A stretch of DNA of 64,000 nucleotides from Diprion similis. Its lineage: Eukaryota; Arthropoda; Insecta; Hymenoptera; Diprionidae. Position 1 is the stretch's first letter; each line of letters starts with the position of its first letter. The notes beneath the pieces were generated by a model, which was not told the origin of the DNA, ran no database searches, and saw only the letters and a list, made by a program, of their open reading frames with translations. Positions 7,247 to 64,000 of the stretch are shown here, one piece after another. The stretch covers positions 4,650,001 to 4,714,000 of the forward strand of contig NC_060118.1 in assembly GCF_021155765.1 (NCBI RefSeq), given 5' to 3'. A program made the position numbers and the translations under genes.

Positions 7247-7440
7247 ATATGGAGGAGACGAGAACACGAAAAGTAGCAGAAAGAGGAAAAGAGCGACAAG
7301 GTAGAGAGAGATAGAGAAAGAGAGAGAGAGAGAGAATCTGTAAAGAGGGGGAGGAACAGAGAGAGAGAGGGAGAAAGAGAGAGAATCAGAGAGAGTAGGA
7401 CAGAGACAGTAGTCGAAAGGGAGAGAGAAACAGGTAGGTG
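7247..7440. repeat. (GA)n-rich low-complexity tract
   Basis: A nearly uninterrupted purine run of GAGA-type units. In insects such tracts can bind GAGA factor and mark promoters. Here only the composition is seen, and binding is inference. Confidence 0.85.
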
Positions 7441-7697
7441 CAGAAAGTGGAAAGAACACGAACAAGAAACAGAGATCGGAGAAGCACACCTTGGGAACAG
7501 TCCGCCCGCGACAAGTTCACTCCCGCACTCACTGAGGCACTGGCCCCGCGCCGTGCTTCTTGGGCCACACACACCTTTCGTATTCCTCCTGCCCCTGACC
7601 CCCGACGCGACCGACAGTCATTCTGCTTTCCGATTGGTCCGTTCAAATCCTTGCCGTGTGACGTCATCGGTTCGAACGTACGTACCTACCGTCGTCG

Positions 7698-7713
7698 CCC
7701 CCCCCCCCCCCCC
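7698..7713 (+). repeat. Poly-C homopolymer, 16 bases
   Basis: An uninterrupted run of C between CGTCGT and TTATACC. It lies between the CRE/CCAAT motifs and a second GA-rich tract. Homopolymers of this length are prone to assembly error. Confidence 0.9.
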
Positions 7714-8420
7714 TTATACCTTTGCACCGTACCAACTTCCCCCTTCTTTATATCTTAGGCGGTACGTATTGCACCGCTCTACCTCTCGTTGCGGAGGAAG
7801 TAGAGAGAGAAAGAGGGAAAAAGACGCAGAGTGCAAGGGGGGGAGAGAGAGAGTTGTCTTACCTGCTTCGATGTATTCTCTGCACACATACTTCATATAT
7901 ACACATGCATACCGATTACTAGTTATACTTTTTATTGTACACCATATATACGAATATCACTTTGAGTTGATTGGGAGAGAAGTGAGCTAGTCTACCTAGG
8001 GGTGAGTGTTCGTGCAGAGTGTAGATTGTAGAGAGTGTAGAAGGAGAAACCCGGGCCGGACTACCTGGGTGGGTACCTTATGTCTACTATACCTGGTAGT
8101 AAGCACGGCCGGCTGAGAAGACGCGGGACTCGAGTTAAGCCGGGTGTAACAACGATGCGACCGAGGACTGAGGACTGAAGAGGCTGAGCGGCGAGGCCCC
8201 GGCAGGTAAAGAGACGAGAGCATGAGGAGCAGAAAAGGAAGAGAAAAAAAAGTGGATGAAAAAAAGAAAATCGAAAACCGGCCACGAGAGCAACGAGCAA
8301 GAGAGAAAGAATCGAGGGGAGAAGGAGGAAAGGAAAAAACACATTCCAACGGTTGCTGCTGGCTGCATGGAGTCGCCCTGAGCCTATAACGATTCCCATG
8401 CCTTTCGAGCGAATCTTTAT

Positions 8421-45938: not shown

Positions 45939-48900
45939 TCATTCGTAATGATCTTCGTAGGCTTCTTTGTACGTAAGCAGTTGATCAAGACATTCGACAA
46001 GTTCATCTTGTTCAAATCCCGAATCTTTGAAACCCCGAAGTTTACTTATACTTTTTATGCTACTCGCTTGAGAGTGAAGCGAATCGAACATATGTGAAAG
46101 ACCGGATCCGCTGTGTAGTCCAGCCAATATAGGAACGGATTTAACTTCTGCAAAGAAATAAAATCCTTATTTATTTAATATTATATTTTTTTCCTTTCAT
46201 AACATCAAATGCGAAATAAACATTTGCCAAAATTCTAAAACAATTGAATCACTTGCCTTCTCCAACTGGCCAAGGTGAAATGTCCCCGTTCTGGTGAATA
46301 TTGTTGTTGAAAATATTAGGATATGGTTCTTTGATGGTCAAAGGTGCTTTGAGATTGGTTAAATGAGTAGCAGTAGCGTGACATGAACAAGCCAGATAAA
46401 GTGTCATCATTTCGTGTACGCTTGAACAACTGTAAGCAGCTTTCCTCTGCTGTAGTTTTGCTTCGTGTGGCAGTCTCTTTAATCTTTCCTCGCTTATCCC
46501 TCTGAGTACAAGACTTTGCATACTCTTATCCATTGATATGTCACAACTAGGAGTTAAACTAGTCCACAAAGGGCCTTCATGATCATCCAAAACGTCGATT
46601 AGATCTTTACCAGCAGTCATGGGAAATGGAAGGCTTAAACTGGTAGCTGCTGCTCTTCTACCAAGTTTGTTCAGATCCGCACATAGGTCTGACAGTGCTG
46701 AAGTAGAAAATTCTTTCTGCCTATATCTCAGACTTATTGTATCTAATGCAGTTGCAAGTAGCGAGCTGCTGTGATAATCCAAGTCTGAATTGTACGTTAG
46801 ATGATTAAATTGACGGCAAGCACCGGCCTGAGGCCAAGCATTTTGTCCCACACAAAGTGGGCTGAATAAAGAGGAATGTTCTCCTATACTTTGGTAGCAC
46901 AAAGCTGTGTTCAATACTTTGAATAGGTCGTTAAGCGACCTCTTAGAATTCTTTCCATCGATAACGGGAAAGGCTATTATACTTTTCCCATATTCATCCT
47001 GTAAGTGCTGGATGCAGGATGAACCAAGGCCAGAGAATCCGTTTGTAGAATCTAGAATAATCTGCACAGAATAAAAGATCAAATGAATCATGCAATAAAT
47101 AGAGATTCTGATCCCATATAACAATTACGTGTAGTAACAAGAATGTAGCTATAAGAAAATAAAGGTGAAATATCGATGAAGTTGGATGTTTAATTGTCAC
47201 GATAGTAACAAAATTGGAAAAAACCGAATTAATATTTGATTGACAACATTCAATATGATACCTATCAGAATCTGTGAATATATCAGAATTATTTGCTACA
47301 GGTTCACATCAAGTCATTAGTTCCAAGGTTTTACTTTCTCCTTGTTTATATATTTACTGATTAATTTTTCGGGAATAATCACCTGAAAGCCTTGCATGAA
47401 ATCGCATTCTTCAGCATAGGCTCTTATTTTGTTTGAAAATTCCTCTTGGAACTGGTCAGTTTTCCACAGAAGACAACCATAATGAAATACGTTGAAAGGC
47501 TGATCCAAGGATTGATGTTCGTAGTCGCGAACAATGTTCACAGTCCTTGGATGGAAACGTGGGACCAGATAATCAGCCCATACTGTAACGTCGTTTTCGA
47601 AATTAAACACTGCATCTCCTCCTTCTGTAGGCCCTTTCTCCAAACTCTGAATGAATGGAGCTTTATTCACTACTGGCTCAGTTGTAACTTGAATATTTTC
47701 AAAATCCCACAAGTCACTGTGCGAAGGTAAGGAATTTTCTACTGCTCCGTACAAATTTCCGTGTTCAGTCAAATGACCGACACTACCTTTTAGATCGACT
47801 AACAGAAGCCTGGGTGTAAACGTCGTCTCTTTCTGTAACAAAACTACACACGATTGTAATTACTCAACAAACAATAGAATGGAAAACTGTATGAAGTAGA
47901 ATTGTGAATATTTGCATTATCAAATTGTTAAACCGTTAAGGTTGGTTGAAATAAAAGTTAGATGCGAAAAAACCATTCAAAACGTCCCCGGCAGTTTCAT
48001 TTTTTTTTATGAAATAGAAATGATTCCAAACAACTTCGAATCACACAACTACAACGGAAGATATGAATAATGGAAAAAGCTTTTAAAATTAGAACCATTA
48101 AAATGTTTAAACTCTGGTGTTTGTCATTCAATTCTAGAGCTTTTTGGCTCGTTTTGTTTTCTTCATCAAACCTATGGGGATCTGCAGATACTGCCTGAAA
48201 AAATTACCCAAGTAGTGGTTTCCGAAATGGATGAAGATGAATTTGTGTAGTTGTAAGTACAGTGTAACCAATCCTTATCAACAATAACCTCTTTATGTTA
48301 AGACTATACTATCATAATCAGATTTTTTGAAAGGTTTTCAGTTAATCTGTACGGGCCTGGTCAGCGAGCAAAGTAAGCCTAAAACATTAGAATCGTATAA
48401 AAGCCACCAGATTTAAAACAATCGTTCTAATTATAAATCCTTCTCTCAAATTGATGATGTCTAAGCTCGTATAGCACAATCAAATCTTCTCAAATTCATT
48501 TTCGACAATATAAAATTATTTTCCATTGAAAAAAAAAGAAATTGCATTTACTTCTGAGAAGATAAATTTTCTCATTCTTTCGTAAGATTTGCTGTCACTG
48601 ATTTTTATTATTATTCATGCTTATGCATCATTGATGTCAAATGCCACAGTCTATGTAATTCTGCATGAAATACACAAACAAAAATATCTAAAAACTTTTC
48701 TGTTTCATGCAACAATAATGCCAGGTGATGTATTTCTGTAATAAGTAGTAATTCAATTACAGGAGCTTCATGGCATTGTTGTTGCGTAAAAGAAACTTAT
48801 TTTGAAAATTTATATTCAGCATTTCGTATAGAATTGGGTTGATAATAGTGAAAATAAGTGATATTTAACGTTATCGGTAAAGTCTGACTATAGCATCCTC

Positions 48901-51311: not shown

Positions 51312-53983
51312 ATGGACGATTTATCTCTACAGGTGTGTACACAAAATTAATTCGATGATAATACTGAATCTCTCGAAATAATGGAGACCCGTATCACACT
51401 TATTATGTTGTTACTGAACTGGTCCATAAATCGTGATCACTAAATTGGATACCGAATTCAAACCATTTCAAAGCCAATTGTAGGTTATGTTGGTTAAGCC
51501 CATCGTTTTTTTTCTACAATTTAAACATATGAAAATAAATTTAAAAATTTACTTTCATATGCCGCAATGAGTTGCTCAAAAATTAGTATATATTGATTAC
51601 TTAAATATTTATATAATATGCATTATTATCACAACGAATTATTTCACCTTCTCCTAGGGGGTTGAGGCGGGACTATTCAACAGTCTAAAATACCAAAATT
51701 ATTATGTATTCAATTTTTTAAATTTTATCACGTAAAATAAATTTTTATCACAGGTTGATGAAATTGAAGCACTCGTCGCCATATACGACAAAGAATGGCA
51801 GACAACCGACGAAGAGAACAGAGCATATGGTATTGACATTAGAAATGAAAATAGTGTGGTGAGGCTCCATATAAAGTTACCTAATAATTACCCATCCACC
51901 GTTTCACCAACTTACGAAATCTCTGCTCCACACCTTAGTGAGTCTCAAAAGAACCACATTCATCGCCTCTTGGACGAGGTATGCTTGTAGGTTTCTGCAT
52001 ATTTATGAAAATATAAGGGAAGGTTCATGTACCAGACATCCAACGGCCTTGGGAATTCCAAAAGTCCTGGAATCATGATTGAATTAATTTATCAATTCTT
52101 TAAACAGTCCTATGAATACAAATGTGTCCTGAAGTTTTTATACTTAAAATCTTTTTCCAATGATAATGATTGAATCCTCATTAAACATTGCCCATTAAGA
52201 ATTATCTTATTATATATTTCCTGGTATTATACTTGCATGAAAAAAATTTTTTTGTTGATATTTTCGTTCCATATTGCATGTAGAGTTGGCTGGGATGTTT
52301 TGACATCAGTTTATTAATAGTCATAATAAGTAAAATTTTATTTAGTGAGTAAAATCTGCCTATAGAATCCTTTTAATCTAAGAATTCAACGACATAAGTT
52401 GTTTGCATCAGGATCTGTAAATGTGAAATCGCATCAAATATGAAAATATGTGAAATCTGGAATTCCGGAAATTTAGAACTATACCCGAATCACGTAGTGA
52501 TTTAACTTATTTGTAATTTAATTCTATGTTCCAGGGCAAATCTTGGGCAGAATGTGATATTTCAACTGGTTGAAAAAGTCCGAGAAGTTTTGCAGTTTAA
52601 TTTTCAAAGCTCTGCTTGGTCGGAGCTTGAAAGCTCGCCAGAATCTGAAGAAATTACCACAGTTCAACCAGTAAAATTGGACCCCAATAATGCGGAATAT
52701 GAATGTCCAGATATTCTACACGGAAGTGTTATTATGGACAGAAAAAGTTCATTTCAAGGACATGCAGCAATTGTTCACTCAGTAAAACAAGTCGAGTACG
52801 TTACTATAGATTATTTTTAACTGTACTTTTTACAAATTATGCATGATTCTTGTCATTGCTTCTAGTTAAAATCATGGTGATGAAATTTGTACAAAAGTTG
52901 TAACTTTCTGATCTGTGAAATCAATTCCATTGCATTACTGAATGTTCATTTCGAGTGAACGTGTAAAGTTACACATTCCATTATAGTCAGTTAATTCAGT
53001 AAAAACAGATTGTTAGAAAAAAAATGTCAAAACAAAGATTGAATACTTTTCTCCCAATATCATTTGTCTAATATATGTTACATTTGATTTCAATAACGTC
53101 GTGTAGTTAATTCATTGTCCAGCTGAGATACAATAGTCCTAAACTGACCGAAAACATCAATCTAATAAGCATAGTTCCATTCGTACTTCTCAAGTATTGT
53201 TTTTCTCATTTATAGACAGGTGATGCACAAACTACTTGAAAATAAGAAAATACATCAAGCGACGCATAACATGTATGCGTACAGAATTTATCGACCGGAT
53301 GTGAATTGTTTTCTTCAGGACTGCGAGGATGACGGGGAAACACAAGCTGGAAGTAGACTACTGCATTTGCTACAGGTAATGTGTGCTTGTTTTAAAAATT
53401 CATTAATTATTTAACAATCAACGATTCGCTTAACTTTACCATTAATGTATTTTCCACAAAATCCGATAACAGTATCCAGTGACGACGATATTCCAGTGAA
53501 GTGTTTCATAAATCTGCCAACTTTTTGCTCAGTTGCATCAACAGAGATTGCAGTTTCAGCTTGCACAAATCCGACAGTGAAAAGCTTAAAATATGAATTG
53601 CTTATACGTGACATTCCTGTAAAACCTGCAGTAGTGAAAACTTAGCAAATGTTACGTTATTTCTCAATGCCAATACCTGTAAAATTGAATGTATTAAAGT
53701 TGTCCTGTAACATTTTGTCTCGAGCTTCAAACGCTTCAGTTTGATGTCTTGAAATTTACGTAAAATATTTAAAAAACTCAAGACCTAGTAATTTTGATCT
53801 AGTTTATTTTTCTGAAAAACATATTTCTAGATCATGGGTGTAAAAGACGCGGTGGTTATCGTGTCACGGTGGTACGGTGGTATACAGCTTGGCCCGGATC
53901 GCTTTCGCCACATCAATAATGCTGCCAGGCAAGTTCTTGCGACTGGCAATTTAATACCGGACAAAGCTAGAAAGAAAGTGTAG
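51312..53983 (+). CDS. impact: IMPACT homologue (RWD + Impact/UPF0029 domains), GCN2 regulator
   Basis: IMPACT (yeast Yih1) competes with GCN2 for GCN1 on ribosomes and so restrains eIF2-alpha phosphorylation during amino-acid shortage. The plus-strand exons are 51,312-51,332, 51,754-51,986, 52,535-52,795, 53,216-53,375 and 53,831-53,983, joining in phase to 275 residues. Residues 8-100 form the RWD domain, starting VDEIEALVAIYDKEW. The donor of exon 2 is GTAGGT at 51,987, because only that gives the family-like join EVCLANLGQNVIF. The nearer GTATGC at 51,979 breaks the frame. Residues about 145-260 are the Impact domain, with ATHNMYAYRIY, LQDCEDDGETQAG and VVIVSRWYGGIQLGPDRF, all highly conserved. 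The C-terminal tail is shorter than the vertebrate one. The 66-codon frame inside intron 4 shows no domain and was left out. Confidence 0.95.
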
Positions 53984-55352
53984 TAGGCATATGTTTTTTT
54001 TTTATAAAGTATTACATTAACGCTGTACATATTATAAGAGGAATACTTACAGTCGATGGTCTTGATACTATTTCTTTCGAATATGTATATACATGTAGAT
54101 ACAAATAATATACGTCTTGAACTTATGCAGCATTTTTATATTTTTTTTTATTGATTAATCGGCCTACTGATATTCAACGACAATTTTAATCATATTTCAA
54201 CGACTCGTGAAATAATGATCATCATTGCAACTGTATCAGTTTGAAATATCTTTCTGGACTTTTAAGGGTCAAGGTTTTAATCAATCACTTTACCCTTTTT
54301 GTACTAAAAAAAATGAATTACAGAACATTTGAAAATGATAATGCTGAATTATAGTAGCCTGTGATACCCTGACTACTACATGATTGCTTGAATTAAAAAA
54401 AATTGATAACTTATGTGACATTTTCAAGGTTTAATTATTTATAACAGTACACAACCTTGTAGTGAAAAAATCCTATTATACATCGTGGATTCCACGGTAT
54501 GGTTTGAAATTTTTACGGAAGAGTACATCAAAGATGGTCACTTTTGGATAAATTTCTGTGACGCTGTAGTGACAGCCCATATTAAATTCCTTTATTCTAT
54601 CTTACATATCATAGACAAGCCTCTAAGGTCTAATTTTGGGTGTAATTTTTCCGTCAATGACACATGAACAATGAAATTAATTTCCCTTATTCGGATTTAA
54701 CATATTTTTTATTCCTACTCTATTCGTCATTGTAATTACTCAATTCCAATCCTTTTCAATATAGGTCATCTAATTATGTGCAACAATTTGAGAGAAAATT
54801 CTAGTTACTGCGGCCCATATACATTGAACGATGTTACATCAATCAAACAAGTACATTAAATTTCATTTTCCTAGTCGTTACTGAGTGTCCAACACTCAAA
54901 GAAAATCTGAAAACAGAAAATGCAATGCATGAAAATTCCCAAATTTCAAAATATTTTCCGAGATATTTTCTCTGTTTGATATAATGACTTACCATCTGTT
55001 ATTTTATGAATACTATGCAATAGATATGTTTCCTTCAATGGAAGAATTCTTTCATCCCATAGCTGCCACAGATCTGCTTTTCTAACTCAGTCTAGTTTTC
55101 TATGACACAGGTTCTATTTTAACTGAACAGTAGATAAGGTATTTCACTTGGTGCAATAGCAATTGGTCATCAGAGAATTTCATATTTCTTTTGATCAATT
55201 TAATTCTTATGTACAAAATCTTAATTATAACTTTAGAAATTTGATCGAATTTTAAAATACTTTAAATTAGTATGTAACTGTTTAATTATGTGTAATCTGT
55301 GATGAAATAATTTTAGTTTGCCCAGGACTATGCAAATGAAATTCGTTTATAT
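53984..55352. other. Intergenic DNA between IMPACT and the galactokinase-like gene
   Basis: AT-rich with no conserved frame. A possible acceptor (TTTTAG) at 55,316 precedes 12 more in-frame codons upstream of the chosen ATG of the next gene, so a 5' exon could lie in this interval. Confidence 0.4.
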
Positions 55353-58300
55353 ATGGATGATTTTGATTATACAAAAGAGATTCATCAGAGTCCGTCGCTA
55401 AAAATGTTAATCTCATTTGCCGAGAGGGAGTTTCATAGAGAATTCTTCAAGCCACCAACATACGCTGTTTATGCGCCGGGCTGTGTTAATTTATGTGGTG
55501 AAAACGAAGATTTTAACGATGGAAAAATTCTGTCTATGGTACGAAGTGCTATGTTTGTAAAGTAACATTTATATAGAATTATCTTATCCCACACAATCAG
55601 AATTTAAATTGTTGAATAATTCAATAAAAATATACACTTTCGAATACAGGCCACTCAGCTTGTAACTGTGATAGTTGGGACTCGAAGAGCTACGAGCAGG
55701 GTGTGCAAGATAAAGACATTGTTGCAAGAAAAGGGTGAAGATAATTATGCCAAATTTTCTTTAAACACAAGCGGTCTTAATACGAGTAGTCAATTTACAT
55801 GGGCGAATTACGTAAAAGCTGTTATACGCAATTTCAGAGTTTCCAAAGGTTCGAAAATATCAGAAGCCCATTAAGCGATACATTCTTTACTAAATCTCAG
55901 ATCTTGTTTCAAGCACCATCATGAAAAAAAAGTGAAATTCGTTTTTACAAGTTATCATTACCCTTTCCTTATGTGCACTGTTTTGAAGCACGAGTAATGA
56001 TGACTGTTTCAATAATTTTGTACAATGATTGTTTATTGGTAATTTCTGGACTACTGCTATTATCATAAAAAGTCACGTGCACATGATTAATAACTTTTTC
56101 AGAATATATTCCTGGATTTAAAGCGCTGATAATATCCAGCATACCAATAAAACGTGGGCTAGGAAGCAGCTCAGCTTTAACAGTTGCTATGTACACGTTG
56201 CTAGAAGCAATTACCAAAGTGTATACGACGAACACATTAGAGAAATCAATTGCATGCCAACTAGCAGAAAAAATCGCTACATCGGTTTCTTGCGGTATTT
56301 GGAAAACTCTGCTTCCTATTGTCGGTATCGAAGGGAAAATAATGGAATTTGACTCAAGATTGCTTCAAATCCAAGAGCACAATTGGAGCCCATTGGATAT
56401 CGATTTGATTTTAATAAATTCGACTGAGGATGGTATCGACACTTTGATGTATCAGAAGCATTTGAATCAGTGCAGAGAAGTTGCCTTTGCACTAAATCTA
56501 ATAAGCCTAAGGGACGCTACTATCCCTAAGCTTGCAACGATTGGACAACTATTCTCATCCGCAGCACTGAAAGGCGCACATCACGTTATTAATGAAAATA
56601 ATAGAGTGACCAGAGCAGGGAGGCTAATAGACCAATGCCATTGGAAAAAACTAGGTTCCGTAATCAGCACATGACATAGCATGTTAATTATATTTGTAAT
56701 AATTCCGTTAAATTCTAATGGCTGAGCATTAATGGTCAATGTTGAAGATTCACAAAGAACATGTCTTGGTGGAGTGAATTCGTATGATTTGCCACAAGAA
56801 TCGTGATTTTTTTAAGGAAGTTGGAACCTAATAGTCATTTTTGATTATGATCTTTCGTAAGTGTCATGGTTTTTCGTACAGAGTTATAGAACGGCTGACC
56901 TTGTTGTGATCGTTTTTCGTGCATCAACCGTTGAAGCACATATAACTTGTGAACTACCGTAGAATTCTTAGTCGTGAGAAACATTTAAATGCTTGTGTTA
57001 TTTTTAAATCTGTCTTATGTCAAAAATGTCCAACAGATTCTCTAATCCGCCTTAATTGCAGACATACTATATGGTAGATACATATTTTGAGTAAGTTTTC
57101 AAATTTAAATCGCAATTGTGAATTTGTAGAATCCATGCCATTTCTTCATTTCTGCGTCAAATGAAAATATGTTGGAGTGTTTTTGTTCAGAATTGTGTAT
57201 AGAATGGGGCTGGTAAACCCTTTTTCATGGTAATTGAGATACGTGGATTTTGATATGTGGAGGTGTATAAGTCACCGGGGAAATCGAACAGGGCACCTCC
57301 CTAAACATTCGTAATCTTACAGAGCAGCATTACTAGAAATTGATATATTTCTGCGAAATTTTATGAAAAACTATTCGTCGAGTTTCAGTTCAATTTACTG
57401 CAGAAGTTGATTTTTTATTCTTTGTAGGTGGTTGTAATTTTTCCTAATATTTCGTTGTTGAACAATTTCTACGAAAACTCTATAAAGAACAACGATTTCT
57501 TACGAAAAACAACGGTTATCAACAATTTTTTGTTTGTGCACGTTTTCATAGAATACCTTAAAAAATATTTTCACCGGGACGATCTCGATCTAATACGGCT
57601 GATATCTTCACGAGCACTAATCATCTGAGAATTTTCCACAAGCAATGTGAAGAGATCGTACTGAGAAATCCTGCATGGAGAAAAATTATCCAGATTTTAG
57701 ATACAGAATTTTTATGGGGAATGTTAATGTTTCCAGAGAATCTTACCTTAATTTTCACTGTGGTACCTATAATGACTAATTTTTTTTCTGGCTCTTAGGA
57801 AGTCTAATGAGGAAGAGTCACCGTTCAATGAGAGATAACTTTGGATCATCATCGTCTCAAATTGAACGCATAATGGGTATGATACATAATATTCACGGCG
57901 TTTACGGAGCTAGAATTGTCGGCCGAGATTTTGGCACTATTATTCTTGTCATGGTGAGTCTTGTCCGAAAAGGCCAAAATGTGAAAAACGAGCATTTTGA
58001 CCATTCCTCTCGGCATCAGAGTAATAACAATGATAGGAATAATAATAATAATAATTTCGAACTTTACAATCCAATATCGGATTATCATTGCCCTATAAGG
58101 TACACAGGCAGGCTATAAGAACGATGGTGAATGCTTTGCGCAATGGTGCCCCATGTCAAGAGTACCAAGTTGTAAAACCGTCGTCCGGTTCCAGAATTTT
58201 ATACGTAGACACAAACGAGCAGCTTTTGCCAATTGTAAGCAGGAAGAGAAGATTTGAGAAAAGCTTTACACCTGTGAATGAAACTTATACAAAAAATTGA
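55353..58300 (+). CDS. Galactokinase-like (GHMP-fold) protein lacking catalytic residues: probable pseudokinase
   Basis: Galactokinase phosphorylates galactose at C1 in the Leloir pathway. The exons are 55,353-55,538, 55,650-55,848, 56,103-56,654, 57,799-57,953 and 58,100-58,300, joining in phase to 430 residues (human GALK1 has 392). Overall similarity is clear: AEREFHREF, WANYVKAVI, IPGFKALIISSIPI, LMRKSHRSMRDNF and GVYGARI all sit where galactokinase has its counterparts. Each signature is altered, however. The GALK motif APGRVNLIGEHTDYN reads APGCVNLCGENEDFN (residues 41-55), so the catalytic Arg (R37 in human) is Cys44. GGGLSSS reads KRGLGSSS (145-152). GIMDQF reads GIWKTL (193-198), so the catalytic Asp (D186) is Lys196. 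GGGFGG reads GRDFGT (354-359). Exon 5 could instead begin at 58,112. Reading through the intron-4 donor (GTGAGT) would give an Asn-rich tail and an early stop. AATAAA follows the stop at 58,317. An inactive sensor-like protein or a recent pseudogene are both possible. Confidence 0.85.
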
Positions 58301-58316
58301 TATTAAATATGGTTGA

Positions 58317-58322
58317 AATAAA
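58317..58322 (+). terminator. Polyadenylation signal for the galactokinase-like gene
   Basis: AATAAA lies 17 bases after the stop codon. Its presence suggests that the gene retains a working 3' end. Confidence 0.5.
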
Positions 58323-59077: not shown

Positions 59078-62059
59078 CTAAACTAGGACCCAATCCTCTT
59101 CCTCTATGCTCGACGGTGTAATAAATTCTTTTGAGAGAGCTGAAAACATTGATTATACAATATATTGTAATAATATAATGCTAAATATTAGATGAAGTTA
59201 TGCACGAAAAATATTTTTATTGGATATTCATAATTTTTTACATACTATCACAATGGGATGAAACACACGAATGTAAAATTCCGTCTGATCTAAGTATTAA
59301 ATATCATAATAATGCAGGTATCTCGAGAACAATAGAATTTACAGATTTGAAAGACTGCAGATTTTCATATCTCGTTGCACACTATAACAGGTAAAAATTA
59401 CACGCAAATCAAACTTGTACTAATGGATCCCATGTTGGAAATTCAAAAGTAATTCACATATATATATATTTCATAACATTCATGTACTCACCATTAAATT
59501 GAGTTTCCAACTCGTGATTTTTTTCTTTATGCGCAGATGACCCAGAGTTGAAGTCAACTTCGTCTATTCCATGTGTTTTATGAGTTTGGTTAGATTTTTG
59601 TTGCAATAATTGTTTGGTACATTCTCCTAGGTCTTGCAACTTTTTCAATTCTGTGGTATAACTTTCATCTTCCTCGTCAATTGATTCAGTATCTGGATTA
59701 TCGTTGTAGTCTGTTATTATATGGTTCAATGATTCATTTGAACTGACAGTACAATCAATTTCTACTCGTATGCCATTGAAGTTTTCTGAGTCAGTGACGT
59801 TTTCTGAAGGACTTGTGCGCTCGTCATCGCAATGGAAAACTGCTGGAGGTTGTTCTCTACCTGAGACAGCTATAGTATCGAAAAGCAAATTCTTGGTTCC
59901 TAGTTCCAAGTTGATGTCATGGCATACAGCAAAGGGAGACGACTTAATTGGCTCTACTTGATTGCTCTTCAGCAACATTTTATCAAGAACTGTTGGTTCA
60001 GAGGAAGAATTCATGCAATCAATAGATGCTATTCCGTTCTCATTTCCATTCAAGCAGCTGCGTAGAAATTTTTTGTTTTTCCGTTCAGGAGTGAATACAA
60101 TATCTTCAAATTCCTGTTCTCCAATTTTTTGTAATATTCGCCAGCGTTCGTCTTGTGTTTTCTTCTGAATAATATCGTTCCGATTCCATGATTCGAAATC
60201 CGTGGTAACGGGCTCTTCAGTCACTTCAGTTACCAAATTCGTTTCAACGCCTAACGGAGGAATAAGCGGAATTTCTGTAGCTTCTTCCCCTTTTGTTACT
60301 GTTGTACTATCTGTGCCAACTGTAATTGTAGGCATGATGCTGCAAAATGATACAAACGTTATTTATTGCAGTATGCAAGTTAAATGAAGAAATCCACTAC
60401 TACCTCATGACGCGAATTCTTAGTTTGCTAAGAAAAATTTCTCGTATTCTCAGTGGAACCTAATTGTAAAACAACCGATTCAAAACTTGTAAAGTATTCA
60501 GAGTAGCAAGTTTTTGATGAGCAAGAAGAGCTCATAAGCATGACACAAATTGCATTGTTTTGCAAGTGTTAACTTCATTTACATTATGAACCCATTAAAA
60601 GAGTTAGCAAGTGCAAGGAAGTCGAATTATCTTCAGGACACTCAAGGTCACCAGATCAGTTTTGCAAACTTGCCAAGGGTTAAGATATATGAGTGCGTAT
60701 GAGCAGCTTCACCAATTATCTGTAAACACTCTGCGGCCAAAATTTGATTTTTCTGCAATCTTCATATCCTGCAAAAATTCGGAAAGTTTCAGACCTCCAG
60801 CACTTCTGGTTATGAAGGGAATCGATCAGTTTTTCAACTTTCACTTGTAACAGCTTCATTATTACATTCGAATTTGTATCACAGCCTTATTACGGAAAGA
60901 GAATATGATCTGAGGTGTTTACTAGGAATGGAACCCCAGGAATCGGTTTTGGGCTGGACCTTCAGGAACTGTCCAAAAACACATTTTCATTAAAAAAGCT
61001 GCTCTTTTCCCAGCTCTAATTCAACACTTTTATCTGAAATCTTGCAATTTTTTCAAATTAAAAACTCACTTAAGGTGCCAAATATGAGTACATCATGAGA
61101 GTTGCCATGGATTCTATAAAGTACATCTGCTCTTTGTTTCAGTAAAATATTTTTAGTATGTTTACATTTTTGGCAGAATATTTTTTTGTTCTTCACATTT
61201 TTAGAATTAAACTTTGCGACAGATATAAATAAAATGAAAATATTTTACTGAGCCAAAAAAAAATTTTATACTATATAAAATCAATTGTAGCCCTTGCCAT
61301 GATTCCATTTACCGCACCTTTTCAAAAAACTCTGACCTCTTCACATATAAAAACTGCCAGATTTTACACAGAAATATCAAATTTGCGATAAACGTTAGGG
61401 AACACAAAAAAATGATTTTTTGCGAAAAAATACTTATTTGTACGGCCCCTGAGGATCCAGCCTAAAACAGATACCGTGATCTGAAAGATCAGATGTTACT
61501 ACAACGGAACCATCTTGGATTATATTTGCTTCCATGATAAGGATAGAATAAGAATTCAAATGTAAAAATGATTCTCCCTAAAGCGGAAAAAATTGATCAA
61601 TGAGTTTCTCCTGAACCACAGAAGTCTAAGACTTGCAGGATTTTGGTAGCTTAGTACGCACTACAAAATATCAAAGTGGCAGAAGAATCTAAATTTTGGC
61701 CTGTATCGTTCACAGGTAATTGGTGGACCAGTTGCCCATATTTTTAGTCAATGGCAGGGTTGTAAGGGGGTTATTAAAGAATCTATAAAGTTTGGACAAA
61801 AAATCGTAGAAGCTAAACAGGACTGTGTGTTCAAATCCCCAATTTAGTTGATCAGAATTTAATGTGCTTGGACGGACTTGATAATACTTAAATTTTTACC
61901 TTATGGACTGGATAAGGTTGCTTGGGTTCATTTTGAGAAGTGGAATAGCTGGTACAATAGAACTTTCTTTAAATTTAGATGTCAATTCCATAATTCCAGC
62001 AGCTATTGGCTTACTGATTTCTGCCAGCGACGGTAGTGGGTCTGTAGTAGTTTCCACCT
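59078..62059 (-). CDS. Unrecognised acidic protein with possible C-terminal LC3-interacting motif (5' end uncertain)
   Basis: Three minus-strand exons join in phase: 62,059-61,900 (donor AAG then GTAAAA), 60,339-59,492 (acceptor TTTTGCAG, donor GTGAGT) and 59,139-59,078 (acceptor GTTTTCAG). Together they encode at least 355 residues. The first exon is invisible as an ATG-started frame but reads PSLAEISKPIAAGIMEL and PAIPLLKMNPSNLIQSI with protein-like composition. The phase-2 split codon joins it to IMPTITVG in the next exon. The start is unknown: either the in-frame ATG at 61,991, the ATG at 60,335 or an unseen upstream exon. The protein is rich in Glu, Asp, Ser, Thr and Asn and looks mostly disordered, with one more regular stretch around QDERWRILQKIGEQEFEDI. 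The last exon gives EFITPSSIEEEDWVLV and stops. EEEDWVLV matches the LIR/AIM consensus, an acidic run followed by W-x-x-L/I/V. I do not recognise the family. Confidence 0.7.
60936..61476. mobile_element. MITE with about 32-bp imperfect inverted repeats
   Basis: The left end contains CGGTTTTGGGCTGGACC then TTCAGGAACTGTCC. The right end, read in reverse complement, contains CTGTTTTAGGCTGGATC then CTCAGGGGCCGTAC. The interior of about 470 bp is AT-rich with no long frame. It lies within the intron between exons 62,059-61,900 and 60,339-59,492 of the acidic-protein gene. The target duplication is unclear. Confidence 0.6.
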
Positions 62060-62483: not shown

Positions 62484-63113
62484 TCATGTACATTGTTTGG
62501 ATATTAAAAGATTAGCAACAAGGTCCCAGTTTAAAGTTTTTTGTTCGAATAACGCCTCAAGCTCTTCCATTTTTTTTTCTCTCCGCTCATATCTAGCATC
62601 ATTAAATTCTATTTGACCTTGTTCATCCATTAAGAGATTTTTAACAAATAAAACTGGTTCCAGTCCGAAAATATTTTGATGTTTTGATTCTATCAACAAA
62701 GGACCTTCAGTATCTTCAGTATCATCTTTCGCACTACTATCTAACAGATTTAAATTATGATCGGCAGATTCCATAAATCGTGCTAGACGATCGAGATGTT
62801 TCTTTTGAGGTATTTGAAAAGTTTTTTTTCCATGCGAGTCTCGCTGTTCCGAATTTTTTAAAGCTTTACAAAGATATTGCCACTTCAACCGAGCTTTTTC
62901 AGTAGCGTTTTCACCAAAATCAAGACCTTTTTGACTACAGTGCCAAACAACATCCGACCAAATGTGTTTCTTAGTCAATTTTGACGATTTAAGAGATGCC
63001 TGAATTCCTGATGAGGTCATTACGTCGATAAAAATGTCAGTTGGATTTTGTTTTGTTACATCTGATATAACATGCTCTGAAACAGATGATATTTGCTTGA
63101 TAATACACGACAT
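62484..63113 (-). CDS. Myb/SANT-like (trihelix, MSANTD-type) DNA-binding-domain protein
   Basis: A single-exon frame of 209 residues from the ATG at 63,113. The upstream part of the open frame (to 63,224) is Ile/Tyr-rich and looks untranslated. Residues about 44-112 form a Myb/SANT-like three-helix domain: KHIWSDVVWHCSQKG, then EKARLKWQYLCKAL, with the spaced tryptophans and the KWxxL pattern of the MADF/trihelix-type domains common in insects. An acidic linker follows (KDDTEDTEGP, 129-138). A charged, probably coiled-coil C terminus follows (RYERREKKMEELEALFEQK, 174-192), suited to dimerisation. Proteins of this kind are usually transcription factors or domesticated Harbinger-transposon partners. 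No nearby transposase was seen. The domain call is from pattern only. Confidence 0.6.
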   Translation of the reverse strand: MSCIIKQISSVSEHVISDVTKQNPTDIFIDVMTSSGIQASLKSSKLTKKHIWSDVVWHCSQKGLDFGENATEKARLKWQYLCKALKNSEQRDSHGKKTFQIPQKKHLDRLARFMESADHNLNLLDSSAKDDTEDTEGPLLIESKHQNIFGLEPVLFVKNLLMDEQGQIEFNDARYERREKKMEELEALFEQKTLNWDLVANLLISKQCT

Positions 63114-64000
63114 GATTATGGAAGTACCGTTTATACTTTTAATGATATAATAATTGAAATGGAGAATAATCATTGTTAAAAATGAACAAACGACGCCATA
63201 AGCATGATGAACAAACATTTTCATTTACGTTTCAACGTTACGTAATCAAATTACGTTTTTGTTATATAGATCAGTAATTCGCAATTTCAATGAAAAATTA
63301 AAAATTGAGTGAACATAATAAAGTGTACATGGTGAGAGACAGACAATTGATTATTGATGTTTTGGTAAGACGTTTTTAGAAAATTTGAATATATATGTCA
63401 ACTCAAACAAAATTGAAGCAACACTTTTCCGACTTAAAGTGACAAACGCAAATTAATTGAAAAACTAAATACTGAATAACTTATAACACGATAAGATTTT
63501 TTGCTAGCAAAAATGGAAGCACTAAGGTATAATCAATCGACCGTACCAAATTCTATTCAGTCCTGATGAATTCCATTTAGTTCAGTGCAAGACGCAAGCT
63601 TGGTTGACTTATTGTTCTGATTACAAATCGACTCCTAATTCTATCTTTATTTTTGGAATTCATTATCAGAGTATAAAGAAAAGTACGTTCCCACATATAA
63701 TTTAAGGGCGATTTGTTTTAATCATTGGCGATGCCAAAAATCTTGTTGACTCACATTCAGAACAACATGATAATCAGTTTCAATGCAAATGAAATTTTCA
63801 GTAATACTGCTAGATTATAATTAAAGAAGTGACCAAAATATGAATTCCGAAAGGAAAAATTAATATAACTGGGAATAGGAACTTGGTAACGTGACTAAAG
63901 ACTTTTTTTTTTAACCAAATACAAAAATTTGTAAAAACGTATAAAACAATCAAGTTCAATACTATATACTTCGAGTTTCCTGAAAACCACACAAACTGCG
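63114..64000. other. AT-rich DNA at window end, no gene seen
   Basis: Probably the promoter of the Myb/SANT-like gene followed by intergenic DNA. No exon boundaries or repeats were recognised. Confidence 0.5.

Follow-up and report, generated by a model that had tools for sequence, protein, structure and literature searches.

The galactokinase-like gene at 55353-58300 (+) of this 64,000-nucleotide stretch of Diprion similis DNA (the window) encodes what we lean towards reading as a GALK1-derived, non-catalytic GHMP-fold protein, a pseudoenzyme. Because the catalytic aspartate, Arg37 and glycines of the phosphate loop are lost, the predicted protein very likely no longer phosphorylates galactose, as judged from the family. 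If it works at all, it is now probably a binding protein and not an enzyme.

The five exons join in frame to give 430 amino acids followed by TGA, and all four introns are of the GT..AG type (Table 1). The five exons spliced in phase, the 430 residues and the poly(A) signal described in the first-pass annotation were thereby recovered. The splicing as drawn is predicted from homology and splice signals. It is hardly credible that the transcript does not join these exons: exon 3 does stay open for six codons beyond its donor, up to a TGA at 56672-56674, but galactokinase homology spans all five exons, junctions 1 and 2 match those of GALK1, and every junction is GT-AG and in phase. The C-terminal tail at 58229-58297 (+), past the aligned end of D. 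similis GALK1, carries a basic patch, RKRR; at a guess, this extension of ~22 residues could hold a nuclear signal.

Table 1. Parts of the galactokinase-like gene of the window, with the motifs that they carry.
Feature	Position	Strand	Description
Exon 1	55353..55538	+	Start codon; galactose-binding motif now GCVNLCGENEDF: R37C, I41C, H44N, Y47F; E43 and D46 kept
Intron 1	55539..55649	+	111 bp, phase 0; aligned place and phase as in D. similis GALK1 intron 1
Exon 2	55650..55848	+	Galactokinase-like gene
Intron 2	55849..56102	+	254 bp, phase 1; aligned place and phase as in D. similis GALK1 intron 2
Exon 3	56103..56654	+	Phosphate loop now PIKRGLGSSSA (G136K, G137R, S140G); catalytic MDQ changed to WKT (D186K)
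Intron 3	56655..57798	+	1144 bp, phase 1; absent from D. similis GALK1
Exon 4	57799..57953	+	Third motif now GRDFGT (G346R, G347D, G350T)
Intron 4	57954..58099	+	146 bp, phase 0; absent from D. similis GALK1
Exon 5 and stop	58100..58300	+	Remainder of the C-terminal GHMP half, followed by ~22 residues past the aligned end of D. similis GALK1
Candidate polyadenylation signal	58317..58322	+	AATAAA, from sequence

The family of the window protein was assigned by profile and sequence searches. The Pfam scores were above the cut-offs of GHMP_kinases_N (PF00288, 43.1 bits, cut-off 22.3) and GalKase_gal_bdg (PF10509, 38.7 bits, cut-off 23.1) and below that of GHMP_kinases_C (PF08544, 13.7 bits, cut-off 21). 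The blastp alignment with D. similis GALK1 covered residues 23-401, the GHMP C-terminal part included, and identity was 33% to both D. similis and human GALK1 (34% by blastp to the former). A phmmer search against the PDB gave human galactokinase as the best match (E 9.3e-54), far ahead of human GALK2 (E 1e-11), and the protein is therefore considered GALK1-derived. GALK2, or N-acetylgalactosamine kinase, is a kinase of the same GHMP superfamily, which the window protein matches far less well than GALK1, and the GALK2-like gene of D. similis is a separate one. With the galactokinase equivalog model TIGR00131, the window protein scored 162.4 bits and D. similis GALK1 335.2 bits against a cut-off of 226.65. 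This is the only discriminating model, as D. similis GALK1 also misses the cut-offs of the other four NCBIfam galactokinase models. The galactose signature GRVNLIGEHxDY reads GCVNLCGENEDF in the window protein and the catalytic MDQ, which includes Asp186, reads WKT. The window protein thus aligns with human and D. similis GALK1 over most of its length, and differs from them in the catalytic aspartate, Arg37, the glycines of the phosphate loop and third motif, and its position below the TIGR00131 cut-off. Similarity would name the gene a galactokinase despite that score, which is a warning for annotation.

The genome does hold a separate intact galactokinase. The galactose-binding signature was matched three times in its contigs, and a complete GALK1 was found at C3:3558035-3560311, with 401 residues in six exons, all motifs intact, a score above the TIGR00131 cut-off and 51% identity to human GALK1. 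The exons that were read of the GALK2-like gene have RVNLIGEHIDY, GLSSSSA and GGGMDQ intact, with the third motif seen in part, and match human GALK2 best among the PDB sequences. A GALT-type domain is present in three pieces at C14:6995965-6996621 (-), on the contig that also contains the window; the match of one piece passes through a TAG, which an intron or a damaged exon could explain. With these three present elsewhere in the genome, galactose metabolism need not rest on the window gene. Among the best candidates from a protein search of the genome (E up to 1), five matches lay in the window gene and four in GALK1, nine in all, and a recent local duplicate is unsupported, since these matches fall only in the two genes.

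The window gene and D. similis GALK1 have two intron positions in common, one in phase 0 and one in phase 1. Five positions are unshared, namely three of GALK1, two of them within the stretch matching exon 3 of the window gene, and two of the window gene, which also has the C-terminal extension of its own. As two parental introns (introns 1 and 2) are kept, a processed pseudogene or retrocopy is ruled out, and because the further introns differ the duplication looks old. By its structure the window gene is thus taken to be an old, DNA-level duplicate of GALK1. In trees that used 27 of 79 prokaryote rows (L078, a fragment, was left out), the window protein grouped with both animal GALK1 proteins, with support of 71/95 under a mixture model and 98/95 under LG+G4. 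The trees did not separate an origin before the divergence of D. similis and human GALK1 from one after it: the groupings compared were 0.06-0.16 log units from the best tree (p-AU 0.39-0.41). The branch of the window protein was 4.83 long compared to 0.86 for D. similis GALK1 under the mixture model (ratio 5.6), and 1.97 compared to 0.56 under LG+G4 (ratio 3.5); such long branches make its placement unsure.

The residues were compared in an alignment of the window protein with the GALK1 proteins of D. similis and human and with galactokinases from 80 prokaryote loci, which are assumed to be active; numbers follow the human protein (chain number minus 7). The prokaryote rows, retrieved with the patterns CGIMDQF and RVNLIGEH, are the top 80 among 590 confirmed ones, and because these patterns come from two of the motifs under comparison, invariance among the rows is overstated. 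Of 18 galactokinase site residues considered, nine were kept and nine changed in the window protein. The substitutions are R37C, H44N, G136K, G137R, S140G, M185W-D186K-Q187T, G346R, G347D and G350T, and the residues kept are E43, D46, G138, S141, S142, E174, G183, Y236 and G349. We take Asp186 to be the catalytic base of galactokinase and Arg37 to stabilise the transferred phosphate; the kept serines and glutamate presumably hold Mg-ATP in family members. The replacement of R37 by Cys, of D186 by Lys and of GGGFGG by GRDFGT, as put forward in the first-pass annotation, is present in the alignment with both GALK1 proteins. The change it described as GGG to IKRG is a real alteration of the loop that is better written LGGG to IKRG, with G138 kept, and its statement that every catalytic motif is altered holds motif by motif but not residue by residue (E43, D46, S141, S142, E174, G183 and Y236 being kept).

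The changes extend well into the rest of the protein. Near-invariant columns, defined by one residue in at least 95% of the alignment, numbered 52; D. similis GALK1 keeps all 52, human GALK1 51 (its stretch ends early) and the window protein 32. The changed columns are R37C, I41C, H44N, Y47F, V52I, P54S, G112A, G136K, S140G, A143S, E146T, M185W, D186K, Q187T, L231I, R239H, R277G, D326E, G347D and G350T. Two further changes, G137R and G346R, fall at positions with Gly in human GALK1 and Ala in D. similis GALK1. Losses confined to the active site were not borne out, as near-invariant columns beyond the motifs, such as G112, R239 and R277, are altered too.

No stop, frameshift or broken splice site, by which an unprocessed pseudogene would be recognized, was found in the 430 codons and four introns. 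For comparison, neutral drift of the D. similis GALK1 codons was simulated at the 178 columns in which D. similis and human GALK1 are identical, until as many had changed as in the window protein (89); this took 0.34 substitutions per site (1.02 per codon). Over 500 runs, the 178 codons acquired 5.4 stops on average and at least one in every run, equivalent to ~13 in 430 codons. The proposal that a neutral pseudogene of this divergence would usually carry stops therefore stood up, with ~13 expected and none present. When stops were forbidden, the simulations kept means of 74-79% of the hydrophobic columns hydrophobic, compared to 88% in the window protein, a value matched in 0-4 of 300 frame-only runs in each of six settings. 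Of the 89 replacements, 30 (34%) had a positive BLOSUM62 score, where the 500 neutral runs averaged 23% and peaked at 35%, but those scoring at least 0 made up 48%, no clear excess over the neutral average of 44%. Identical hydrophobic, identical polar and Gly/Pro residues were not retained in excess, as the frame-only simulation reached the observed levels in 28-143 of 300 runs, and polar-to-hydrophobic changes were not depleted. Base composition was uninformative (GC3 of 0.367 in the window gene and 0.423 in D. similis GALK1; GC of 0.329 in the introns).

Retention in the window protein hardly follows the conservation of the family. From the most to the least conserved class it was 31/51, 15/35, 16/37 and 27/55, whereas the means of 79 prokaryote rows in the same classes were 0.99, 0.88, 0.65 and 0.25. 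The retention gradient was 0.12, against a minimum of 0.41 among the 79 rows (the L078 fragment left out). The enzyme's own constraints are gone from the window protein, and unconstrained decay gives the same flat pattern. The available part of a study of Andrena bees reports a background galK dN/dS of 0.161 (PMC10217997). Scaling the branch ratio on this value gave a crude dN/dS of ~0.6-0.9, close to neutral; this assumes that the mutation rate is uniform, that the gene duplicated near the node of animal GALK1 and that 0.161 holds for D. similis GALK1. Constraint is thus visible across the history of the window gene, yet three observations mark it as weak or of a new kind: retention does not track conservation in the family, the other residue classes are not retained in excess, and the branch is 3.5-5.6 times as long as that of GALK1.

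These observations bear on several other readings of the gene. It is possible, though we doubt it, that a long-kept gene lost its function recently and has been decaying without a stop so far. Such decay fits the flat retention, the very long branch, the several residue classes without excess and the loss of near-invariant residues beyond the active-site motifs (G112A, R239H, R277G). It fits less well with the intact reading frame and splice sites and the kept hydrophobic pattern, and it leaves little time: in 400 neutral runs started from the present sequence, 95% hit a stop within ~0.04 substitutions per site, so that a neutral phase could account for at most about one eighth of the 0.34 (at the 95th percentile). 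Continued enzymatic activity on another substrate or by another chemistry seems improbable to us. Some GHMP kinases work without the catalytic aspartate, S141, S142, E174, E43, D46 and Y236 are kept, among them the serines and the glutamate that hold Mg-ATP in family members, and GLGSSSA still resembles a loop. Against it, G136K, G137R, G346R and G347D place bulky charged residues where human and D. similis GALK1 have Gly or Ala, and PF08544 remains below its cut-off.

The first-pass annotation had pointed to yeast Gal3 as a precedent. According to the portions of the sources that were available, Gal3 is a Gal1 paralogue of yeast whose enzymatic activity has been lost (PMC7556753), and Gal3p is activated by binding of galactose and ATP (PMC5787706). 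The window protein is likewise predicted to be a galactokinase paralogue without enzymatic activity. Since Gal3 arose by paralogy from yeast Gal1 (PMC7556753, available part), the two are of separate origin. A sensor of the Gal3 type, which would bind both galactose and ATP and pass the signal on to a partner, is very unlikely here: apart from the precedent of Gal3p, E43, D46 and Y236 speak for it, but Gal3 keeps the sugar motif GRVNLIGEHIDY and GGMDQ where the window protein has GCVNLCGENEDF and GIWKT, and residues that hold the ligands in the family are among those lost. The analogy with Gal3 is therefore unsupported in its ligand-sensing form.

The non-catalytic GHMP-fold protein that we prefer would act in another manner. 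From the kept frame and hydrophobic pattern a folded protein is argued. The earlier view that retention of the frame reflects selection for a non-catalytic job is borne out insofar as the frame was constrained (no stops against ~13) and TIGR00131 was failed; it has to be tempered in that the constraint is weak or new. The phosphate loop now bears bulky cationic side chains, ATP is likely to be bound poorly given the substitutions, and the cleft for sugar and ATP may be closed or reused. Binding of a partner protein would be the simplest job for a folded non-catalytic protein; we infer that the protein is expressed and acts in this way, as an XOL-1-like regulator or scaffold, and the metabolic work would be carried by the intact GALK1. 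XOL-1 of Caenorhabditis, described in the accessible part of its source as a regulator of GHMP fold in which ATP binding was not detected (PMC11349215), is a closer precedent than Gal3 for the manner of working. The same text gives XOL-1 very little sequence homology to non-nematode genes (PMC11349215), whereas the window protein is plainly galactokinase-derived, and XOL-1 was absent among the 23 PDB sequences that the window protein matched at E up to 0.1.

That the window protein is a dedicated non-enzymatic regulator derived from GALK1, a third independent case after yeast Gal3 and nematode XOL-1 that has given up the sugar site and signals without sensing galactose, is a tentative proposal and rather unlikely as it stands. 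If true, a catalytically dead GALK1 duplicate beside a complete one would be the third GHMP regulator after these two, and parent and dead copy could be compared within the same cell. Among the matches listed for insect and Hymenoptera galactokinases, inactive GHMP proteins, pseudoenzymes, site residues and galactokinase-like proteins, the titles and abstract openings described no inactive animal galactokinase.

The window contains further features around the galactokinase-like gene. Two exons of a UPF0029 gene, which we take to be IMPACT, lie at 53175-53985 (+) and end ~1.4 kb upstream. A Misato-type tubulin-like gene is present at 46252-47859 (-), where two frames score above the cut-off for Tubulin_3 and one of these also matches Misat_Tub_SegII. 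An open frame of 302 codons at 59454-60362 (-), with its ATG at MPTITVG, gave no Pfam match at 0.01. A second one, of 246 codons at 62484-63224 (-), had Psb28 as its sole Pfam match, below the cut-off and unlikely; on inspection its product looks like a DNA-binding protein of the MADF type. The low-complexity frame at 7277-7990 (+), with Arg-Glu repeats and with Ser-Leu repeats in a frame of the opposite strand, is probably a simple repeat. Elsewhere in the genome, contig 1 starts with repeats of TTAGG, the arthropod telomere repeat.
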